From Lachnospiraceae bacterium (GTDB lineage: Bacteria > Bacillota > Clostridia > Lachnospirales > Lachnospiraceae), in the NCBI GenBank assembly GCA_024696005.1, contig JAILHF010000019.1, forward strand, positions 1-64,000: a stretch of DNA of 64,000 bases, written 5' to 3'. Both the position numbers and the translations under genes were made by a program. The number at the start of each line of letters is the position of its first letter. The stretch's first letter is position 1. This document shows positions 45,225 through 61,599 of this stretch, in pieces. A model generated the notes under the pieces. It did not search any database. It saw only the letters and a list, made by a program, of their open reading frames with translations, and was not told the origin of the DNA.

Positions 45225-45395
45225 GTTACGTTCGCAAGACGTCTTTTCTGGATGAGGGTCGTGATGGGTTCGGAGCAGAAGCACATAAGTCCGGGCACCT
45301 CCGCGACGTGCCCGGCCCTTATGTCTTCTGCTCTGCCTGCCAGGTTCTCTGCCATCCAGCAAAGCCGCAAGCTCACTACACTGCCGGTGGTTGGT
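45225..45395 (-). repeat. Dispersed hairpin element, copy 1 (short form)
   Basis: On the minus strand this stretch reads CAGTGTAGTGAGCTTGCGGC, then CAGGCAGAGCAGAAGACATA, then the core hairpin and CTTGCGAACG. The same order recurs on the plus strand at 61.2-61.6 kb. The core (45273-45333) is GAGCAGAAG-ACATAAG-CCGGGCAC paired with its complement around a nine-base loop. It sits between the LIV promoter and the terminator of the Ig-like gene, with no gene inside. Confidence 0.8.
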
Positions 45396-45427
45396 GTGGA
45401 CAGTCACGAAGATGTTCGCTTGGGGGC

Positions 45428-59760: not shown

Positions 59761-61113
59761 TTATTTCTCCAGCCTCTTGAGCAGAGCTTCTCTCTGCTCT
59801 TCGTATCCGGGCTTGCCGAGAAGTGCAAACATGTTCTTCTTGTAGCTTTCCACACCGGGCTGGTTGAAAGGATTCACGCCCAGGATGTATCCGCTCACGC
59901 CGCAGGCAAACTCGAAGAAGTAGAAGAGCTCGCCCAGGTAAAACTCGTTCACTTCGGGCACATTGATCATCAGGTTGGGAACCTGACCGTCGGTGTGCGC
60001 CAGAATGGTCCCGTTCATCGCGCTCTTGTTGACAAAGTCCACGGTCTTGCCCGTCAGATAGTTCAGACCGTCCAGATCCACCGGCTCTTCCTCGATGACA
60101 AGATTCTCGCGGGAAGTCTCGATATTGATCACGGTCTCGAAGAGATTGCGGGAACCGTCCTGGATGAACTGGCCCATGGAATGCAGATCCGTCGTCAGAT
60201 CCACGCTTGCGGGGAAGATGCCGCGCTGGTCCTTGCCCTCGCTCTCTCCGTAAAGCTGCTTCCACCACTCGCTCACGAAATGCACCGCGGGCTCGTAGTT
60301 TGCCAGGATCTCGATCTGCTTGCCCTTGCGCAGCAGGATGTTGCGCAGTGCAGCATATTTCAGTGCGTCATTATTCTCGAAGTCGTTCTCAACGGCACGC
60401 TTGCGTCCGCTGGCAGCACCTTCCATCAGCTTGTCGATGTCGGCACCGCTCACTGCGATGGGAAGCAGACCTACCGCCGTCAGAACAGAGAAACGGCCGC
60501 CTACGTCATCGGGCACCACGAAGCTCTCGTAGCCCTCTTCGTTTGCCAGGTTCTTGAGCGAGCCTCTTGCCTTGTCGGTCGTGGCATAGATGCGCTTTGC
60601 AGCTTCTGCCTTGCCGTACTTTTCCTCCAGCTTCTTCTTCAGGATGCGGAAAGCGATCGCGGGTTCCGTGGTGGTACCGCTCTTGCTGATCATGTTGATG
60701 GAGAAGTCGCGGTCGCCGATCACTTCCAGCAGATGCGTCAGATAGGTCGAGCTGATGGAGTTGCCGCAGAAATAGATCTCGGGCGTTCCTCTCTCGGCCT
60801 TCGACAGTACATTGTAAAAGCTGTGGCGCAGGAACTCGATCGCGGCGCGGGCTCCCAGATAGCTTCCACCGATGCCGATCACCACCAGCACATCGGAATC
60901 GCTCTTGATCTTGTCCGCCGCCTTTTTGATACGGGCAAATTCGTCCTTGTCATAATCCACCGGCAGATCGATCCAGCCGAGGAAATCGTTTCCGGCGCCC
61001 TTTCTGCTGAGCAGCAGCTCCCTTGCATCCAGTGCCTGCTTCTTCATCAGCTCCACTTCATGGTCTGCCACAAAGCAGCCGGCTTTTCCATAGTCAAAAC
61101 TTACCTGTGCCAT
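59761..61113 (-). CDS. pgi: Glucose-6-phosphate isomerase
   Basis: A 450-residue enzyme of the short bacterial PGI type, interconverting glucose-6-phosphate and fructose-6-phosphate. [56 protein letters not shown] and [17 protein letters not shown] are the standard signatures. AAGGAG lies eight bases ahead. It heads a two-gene operon with the MORN protein. Confidence 0.96.
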
Positions 61114-61163
61114 AGCTTTATCTCCTTATATTATTGTATAGTTACAGTTCATAAACTTTATTC

Positions 61164-61191
61164 ATTATAGCTGAATGAAACGGCTTGTCAA
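61164..61191 (-). promoter_or_regulatory. Promoter of pgi
   Basis: Minus-strand TTGACA (61191-61186) and TATAAT (61169-61164), both perfect, 16-base spacer. The dispersed repeat copy 2 begins about 50 bases upstream. Confidence 0.88.
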
Positions 61192-61217
61192 GCGAGGGGG
61201 GAGCTTTGTTTGGAGCA

Positions 61218-61560
61218 GAAGTCGTCCCCACCACCCCACCCGACAACAGTGTAGTGAGCATGCGGCTTTACGGGAAGGCAAAGAACCTTGCAGGCAGAGC
61301 AGAAGACATAAGTCCCGGGCACGTCGCGGAGGAGCCCGTCAGCTCTTGAAGCTGCATGATGAGTATAGGGACGAACGGCCATGGATGGCCGTTCGAGCGA
61401 GAGCCACAGCAGGGATGCTGTGTCTCGAGCAGTCCCGGGCTGTACCCGGAATGAAAGCAGCGACGTAGAGCTGCGTGGCTCCGGAGTGGTGCCCGGACTT
61501 ATGTACTTCTGCTCAGTAGCTTCCTCTATCCTCATCCCGCAAAGTCGTCCTGCGAACGGA
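61218..61560 (+). repeat. Dispersed hairpin element, copy 2 (long form with internal structured segment)
   Basis: Both flanks and both arms of copy 1 are present in the same order: CAGTGTAGTGAGCATGCGGC, CAGGCAGAGCAGAAGACATA at the left arm (61297) and GTGCCCGGACTTATGTACTT to CTTCTGCTC at the right arm (to 61514), then CTGCGAACGG. Between the arms are about 160 extra bases made of further hairpins: CAGCT...AGCTG, GAACGGCCATGGATGGCCGTTC, ACAGC...GCTGT, CCGGG...CCCGG, GCAGC...GCTGC. No convincing gene lies inside. It occupies the gap between the divergent pgi and cellulase promoters. Confidence 0.8.
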
Positions 61561-61570
61561 ATCCCATCAA

Positions 61571-61599
61571 TTGACAAGCCAAATCTCCCGTGTTATGTT
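61571..61599 (+). promoter_or_regulatory. Promoter of the GH5 cellulase gene
   Basis: TTGACA (61571-61576), 17-base spacer, TATGTT (61594-61599), about 40 bases ahead of the start codon. Confidence 0.7.

Follow-up and report, generated by a model that had tools for sequence, protein, structure and literature searches.

TwoAYGGAY (Rfam RF01731) is a structured RNA with two GGA terminal loops (Weinberg, 2010; Gardner and Eldai, 2014). On the basis of its motif it was proposed to be an sRNA of Clostridia that binds CsrA, validation being described as ongoing in the portion of that paper available to us (Gardner and Eldai, 2014; PMC4333381). The consensus obtained for CsrA by SELEX is RUACARGGAUGU, with an essential GGA held in a hairpin loop (PMC3856055, available part), and the CsrA-sequestering sRNAs of the CsrB/RsmZ type likewise carry several sites with GGA in hairpin loops. 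Among dispersed repeats, the closest precedent that we find for the element described here is the bcr1 type of the Bacillus cereus group. These are MITE-like intergenic repeats of which, according to the available text, 84 of 165 copies in one strain and 62 of 155 in another lie in an mRNA, and some bcr repeat families have conserved RNA structures (PMC3446304). The REP/BIME repeats associated with RAYT are also palindromic, dispersed and found in inverted pairs, the REPs themselves being given as 20–40 bp long in the accessible part of the source (PMC3733652).

The window analyzed here is a stretch of 64,000 nucleotides from the genome of a Lachnospiraceae bacterium (G000; 3.75 Mb in 74 contigs), and it contains the long copy of a repeat that invites comparison with each of these systems. 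The repeat shares with TwoAYGGAY the core structure, the two GGA terminal loops and a score over the cut-off. It differs in that the core here sits at the center of a repeat that is dispersed, has long arms unlike between genomes and amounts to 24 copies in one genome—a setting that the available text of Weinberg (2010) and of Gardner and Eldai (2014) does not mention. From the CsrB/RsmZ-type sRNAs it differs in having two sites per copy distributed over many loci and in that no promoter of its own was identified at the copy scanned. The bcr1-type repeats have a different sequence and host, and no protein-binding core is named for them in the part of the source at hand (PMC3446304); in contrast to REP/BIME, no Y1 transposase was found in G000 and the element is about ten times longer than the REPs (PMC3733652, available part). 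In the literature searched, as far as its text was available, we found neither a description of this repeat nor a tested function for TwoAYGGAY. The prediction that TwoAYGGAY binds CsrA is known already; what is new is its fast-changing, dispersed, MITE-like form in this bacterial family. We interpret the element as a MITE-like palindromic repeat with a CsrA-type decoy RNA as its center, a reading to which we assign a probability of roughly 0.47.

The long copy and its TwoAYGGAY center

The long copy forms an extended, imperfect hairpin, branched at its center, that spans approximately positions 61226–61562 of the forward strand, these ends being where homology fades among the 11 type A copies with flanks (type A is the class to which the long copy belongs). 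Folded as the segment 61180–61585, it reaches -195.2 kcal/mol, whereas shuffled versions average -144.65 (z -7.54) and 0 of 100 attain so low an energy. Together with the 29 BLAST places for the element in G000, this fold bears out the earlier, sequence-only reading, which had seen here the long copy of a dispersed element with a hairpin-rich center.

The type A element is built in the order C-rich 5′ leader, outer arms, inner arms and TwoAYGGAY core. Both the 5′ terminal motif GTGTAGTGAGC with the left outer arm GCGGCTTTACGGGA (61249–61278, forward strand) and the right outer arm TCATCCCGCAAAG with the 3′ terminal motif TGCGAACGGAA (61532–61562, forward) are kept in type A copies. Inside them the left inner arm GAGCAGAAGACATAAGTCCCGGGCAC (61297–61322, forward) pairs with the right inner arm GTGCCCGGACTTATGTACTTCTGCTC (61489–61514, forward), the words GAGCAGAAG (61297–61305) and CTTCTGCTC (61506–61514) forming part of this pairing. 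GAGCAGAAG had been taken for the terminal sequence of the element, which it is not: homology continues through the outer arm to about 61226 and about 61562, and the occurrence of GAGCAGAAG at 61213–61221, near the left edge drawn previously, is an additional copy outside the hairpin.

The core itself (61324–61489, forward) matches the RF01731 covariance model over its whole length (model positions 1–168 of 168) with 87.8 bits, exceeding the gathering threshold of 43 bits, and an E value of 2.5e-15; its identity as TwoAYGGAY is to our minds virtually certain. Two hairpins within it carry predicted CsrA-type sites, placed by the Rfam match, the fold and an alignment (A1) of 37 chosen copies, which comprises 23 of the 24 own copies and 14 from relatives and is made without the G019, G057, G071, G086 and G091 groups. 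Hairpin 1 (61372–61395, forward) has the loop ATGGAT with its GGA at 61383–61385, and hairpin 2 (61405–61422, forward) has the loop AGGGAT with its GGA at 61413–61415. Type A loops follow the form C-A-N-GGA-N-G, and loop 1 of type B (the second class of own copies) is one base shorter than the consensus.

Both loops contain GGA in all 37 copies of A1. Read by script over a broader set of 133 copies, GGA is present in 110 of the first loops and 129 of the second, the script misreading some second loops (three own copies that are GGA-bearing in A1, and some of G057). The 23 of 133 copies whose first loop lacks GGA by script include 10 of 10 in G019; loop 1 is ACGAT in all 10 of these and in those copies of G012, G016 and G008 that were examined (one copy in G008). 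CGA thus replaces GGA in loop 1 in these four genomes and also in some G057 and G071 copies, and some G057 copies have CGA in both loops by eye. The groups with a CGA first loop are lineages in which one G of one site has been lost, and the two-GGA-loop feature of TwoAYGGAY, present in the long copy, is not universal across the family.

Dispersal, probable deletion derivatives and relatives

All 24 TwoAYGGAY matches in G000 lie above the cut-off (24/24), and 0 of 14 control genomes are hit. Classified by eye, the copies comprise 11 of type A (including the long copy), 12 of type B, among which L028 is truncated, L030 is divergent and most have GCAGGCAGATATAG ends, and a single copy, L032, of a third type.

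The window also holds a short copy on the reverse strand (45225–45410, ends approximate), identified by BLAST and by comparison with the long copy, which has the same arms and no TwoAYGGAY core. Compared by eye it is without about 157 bases, corresponding to approximately 61332–61488 of the long copy, in keeping with the 160 or so extra loop bases estimated earlier, and its inner stem closes on about nine bases. Two origins had been offered for this pair: either the short form is an internal deletion derivative, or cargo was inserted into the loop of a short element. The 157-base core stretch is present in 11 of 11 complete type A copies, and a query with the type A arm found no second core-less copy in G000; as the short copy is thus the one exception among the copies found, we reject the alternative that cargo entered a short element. 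G019 also has internal-deletion copies (C52:1426-1650 and one on C33, by eye), as well as a collapsed remnant on contig C5 whose left flank is common to a full copy in G012 (by eye). With deletion copies in both G000 and G019, the short form is therefore most simply an internal-deletion product and not the parent form.

Additional type A copies stand at the ends of contigs C12, C21, C17 and C23, where about 80 extra bases adjoin hairpin 2, and the type A copies at C73:502760-503106 and C71:7076-7304 are rearranged near hairpin 2. As a side observation, several type A copies have a nested repeat of about 80–100 bases that adjoins hairpin 2 or takes its place (G000:C73:502848-502949; the ends of C12, C17, C21 and C23, four contigs that end there; and a remnant at C71:7181-7207). 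L030 (G000:C68:66911-67071) is a divergent type B core amid tandem-looking repeats, inside a long frame on the opposite strand. L092 (G000:C42:34759-34783) looks like an isolated type A 5′ end of 25 bases that includes the C-rich leader and has no element attached; L092 aside, no solo ends and no autonomous element with type A arms were seen in G000.

The element has the traits of a MITE, being short, without an ORF of its own and present as many dispersed copies with inverted-repeat arms, and the non-autonomous, mobile layout suggested for it earlier agrees with this. Frames called over the core are chance-like; the ORF context is a crude one, made without a gene caller for 128 of 134 copies, 43 of the 128 overlapping a frame of at least 80 codons. 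Given the dispersal, the arms that are unlike between genomes, the ends shared by two genera and the deletion derivatives, MITE-like is the best description, and we hold dispersal as a MITE-like mobile repeat to be probable. The type A arm query in G000 returned only copies of the element and two short partial matches, and the repeats break the assembly. No target-site duplication is evident by eye in the flanks of copies. At the isomerase loci of 11 relatives, the stretch of the window with the element matches the isomerase gene only (blastn), with other neighbors around it, and in five relatives the stretch of the short copy matches only its own gene, again among other neighbors; with such differing neighborhoods, these comparisons therefore give absence of the element nearby and not a clean empty site.

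Across 144 genomes, G000 included, there are at least 259 TwoAYGGAY matches, counted up to a ceiling of 18 per genome; 35 genomes have a match at E 0.001 or better (34 of them above the cut-off), 21 carry at least 5 copies and 11 at least 10. Our working set of 134 copies (24 own and 110 of the relatives' matches listed) is skewed to high scores, and L054b, which lies outside its fetched locus, and L059–L063 are left out of the copy-set analyses. By blastn, type A matched 2 of 40 genomes, i.e., its own and, weakly over 131 bases, G007. A sequence pattern shared by types A and B has as its only match in the named genome collection the MAG Lachnospiraceae bacterium Tb.RUG.225, in whose label RUG presumably stands for rumen genome. 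In the multi-copy genomes read, the two arms of a copy match each other well, and arms are unlike from one genome to the next. GGGTGTCAAAA-like ends occur in G019, of the same genus, and in G091, of another genus (fuzzy matching finds the two ends together in 6 of 10 copies of G019 and in 7 of 16 of G091); the ends in G002 are AACTTCC with CACCG, with a related arm in G050, and the ends in G000 are others. Some copies occupy the same site, with flanks alike, in different species (G016 L037 = G019 L103 = G023 L040; G043 L163 = G003 L167 = G050 L155; G043 L166 = G003 L169; G044 L052 = G004 L056; G049 L046 = G014 L050), and copies therefore persist as well as spread. Divergent TwoAYGGAY pairs about 120–300 bases apart recur in three genera, examples being L047, L135 (G057), L112 (G086), L137 (G048), L156 (G018) and G000:C73:502760-503646. 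Carriage by phages or plasmids is rejected, the element being absent from the 50,697 phage and 72,556 plasmid records searched and giving no exact pattern match in viral contigs.

RNA structure or DNA palindrome

Over A1, RNAalifold gives 35 pairs, 26 of which are changed on both sides, against a mean of 16.8 and a maximum of 21 in 500 shuffles that keep relatedness, which can inflate such counts, and with a structure predicted from the same sequences; standard pairs make up 94.6%, compared with at most 80.0% in the shuffles. The suspicion that the center of the element is a structured RNA is upheld by the RF01731 match with covariation over its copies. We then take the copies set by set, predicting a structure for each set with 30 arm bases included per side and comparing it with 200 shuffles. 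In six of the eight sets the double-change pairs outnumber those of every shuffle: type A of G000 (11/72; shuffle mean 2.9, maximum 7), G019 (9/76; maximum 6), G091 (32/74; mean 13.2, maximum 19), G002 (17/67; mean 5.5, maximum 9), G050, G043 and G003 together (24/68; maximum 18) and G086 (47/69, from 8 of its 12 copies; maximum 34). The type B set of G000, which consists of 10 of 12 copies with the truncated L028 and the divergent L030 left out, gives 0 of 53, under a predicted structure that is not the family's. For 132 copies together, core only, the double-change count of 18 of 18 is saturated (shuffles reach up to 18), and paired cells make up 91.2%, compared with no more than 62.0% in shuffles.

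Under the A1 structure, type A has 4 of 35 double-change pairs, not above its shuffles (mean 2.0, maximum 4), with 95.6% standard pairs against at most 94.5%, and type B has 0 of 35 without L030 and 6 of 35 with it (shuffle maximum 5). Covariation is thus strong in comparisons between genomes and within several of the relatives; inside G000 it is modest. As to the conservation of the inner stems, for which the sequence-only reading had proposed a search for compensatory changes, it is thus visible among the copies of A1 and only modest within type A.

These observations have to be weighed against the reading that the palindrome acts at the DNA level only, as a MITE hairpin for excision or one perfected by template-switch repair, the RNA being a by-product that binds nothing. 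Template-switch repair of palindromes could mimic both covariation and matching arms, and long matched arms that are unlike between copies are what we see. Whole stem blocks are swapped at once, as in hairpin 2 of L021, no strong promoter points towards the long copy, and covariation of type A under the family structure is weak. Several features are at odds with a palindrome of DNA alone. The same core recurs across genera despite different arms, and the hairpin 2 stem of type A is rewritten in L021, L011 and L025 with GGA retained. The GGA columns are invariant while other unpaired columns vary: the six GGA columns do not change in the type A core, where 44 of 96 unpaired columns vary (p 0.022), nor in type B with L030, where 44 of 95 vary (p 0.021). 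For type B without L030, 32 of 95 unpaired columns vary and p is 0.078; measured against all core columns, p becomes 0.064 for type A, 0.047 for type B with L030 and 0.175 without it. Where a pair is predicted on both strands, G-U cells are almost twice as numerous as A-C cells (78 vs 41; p 0.0009 if cells are independent), in the same direction in seven of seven sets. The G-U excess and the invariant GGA columns favor an RNA; we lean towards action at the RNA level, and regard the palindrome acting as DNA only as rather unlikely.

Candidate partner, neighboring genes and meaning

For the MITE-like repeat with a CsrA-type decoy RNA at its center, we envisage that an enzyme acting on the palindromic ends would spread the copies, and that a copy in a transcribed place, perhaps mostly via read-through from the preceding gene, would yield an RNA. 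This RNA would fold on its own and expose two GGA hairpin loops of CsrA-binding type, and the dispersed copies would jointly serve as a decoy reducing the pool of free CsrA, or as marks on host transcripts for CsrA. The CA-N-GGA-N-G loops of type A agree with the SELEX consensus as given in the available part of that paper (PMC3856055), and G000 encodes CsrA beside FliW. CsrA is found in 30 of 35 carriers of TwoAYGGAY vs 72 of 109 non-carriers (Fisher p 0.03; G001 has only a 22-residue fragment), and within the genus there is no such association (21 of 26 carriers vs 8 of 9). In five of the 35 carriers (G020, G047, G008, G013 and G042) CsrA was not found even at E 10. Two of these, G020 with 11 copies and G047 with 9, have a genome completeness of 99–100%, and for the copies examined (three from each) the script reads GGA in both loops, as does A1 for five of them. 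With a motif match on one side and CsrA-less carriers and lost GGA on the other, CsrA is the best candidate, not a secure one, and judged from sequence we name it as the partner of TwoAYGGAY only tentatively.

The carriers in which CsrA was not found at E up to 10 would fit a functional RNA in which the two GGA loops are recognized by some protein different from CsrA, as would the ACGAT first loops of 10 of 10 G019 copies and of the copies examined in G012, G016 and G008. The match to the CsrA motif, independently published, and the higher share of CsrA among carriers tell against such a protein, which we consider unlikely.

The long copy lies between a phosphoglucose isomerase gene (PF00342; 59761–61113, reverse strand) on its left and a gene for a family 5 glycosyl hydrolase (PF00150; 61642–62946, forward) on its right, and ends 80 bases before the hydrolase start. 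By consensus match, a promoter-like TTGACA-16-TATAAT (12/12; 61164–61191, reverse) points towards the isomerase and away from the element, and a promoter-like TTGACA-17-TATGTT (10/12; 61571–61599, forward) for the hydrolase starts downstream of the element. Both strong sites would leave the element untranscribed, and the site towards it is a weak GTGCCA-16-TATTAT (9/12; 61107–61134, forward), of a kind of which about 0.5 are expected by chance in the region. The element stands between GGCTTGTCAA (61182–61191) and its reverse complement TTGACAAGCC (61571–61580), which overlap the -35 boxes of the two divergent promoter-like sites; the pair may represent a single operator that the element has split, or may be coincidental.

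The upstream gene reads in the direction of the copy in 76 of the 123 cases scored among 128 copies, a share which suggests that read-through from the preceding gene would be at most modest. That figure, the position of the long copy just before the hydrolase gene and the Rfam type of RF01731, Cis-reg, are what a cis-acting leader or 3′-end element of neighboring genes would lead one to expect. Such a role is nonetheless improbable: the downstream gene is co-directional in 65 of 123 cases (65 vs 58), which is near random, the promoter-like site of the hydrolase begins after the element, the neighbors of both window loci differ in relatives, and the table of Weinberg (2010), as available, scores TwoAYGGAY as not cis-regulatory. 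An origin as a REP/BIME-like repeat mobilized by a Y1 (RAYT) transposase is very improbable, for although the element is palindromic, intergenic and sometimes in inverted pairs, the transposase check proposed earlier, as run for the Y1 family, gave 0 matches to PF01797 in G000, for which this origin is rejected, and no association with TwoAYGGAY in 144 genomes (18 of 35 carriers vs 65 of 109 non-carriers).

In a wider form of the decoy reading, a mobile repeat family would amplify protein decoys: each carrier genome in this bacterial family would build its own set of CsrA-binding RNAs by transposition, and the copy number of a selfish element would set the sponge dose. We put this forward as a doubtful extension. 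MITE-like dispersal with largely conserved CsrA-type loops makes copy number and spread part of the TwoAYGGAY question, and natural experiments are at hand: CsrA is present in some carriers and was not found in others, the core is kept by most copies and missing from the short one, and certain lineages are minus one GGA.
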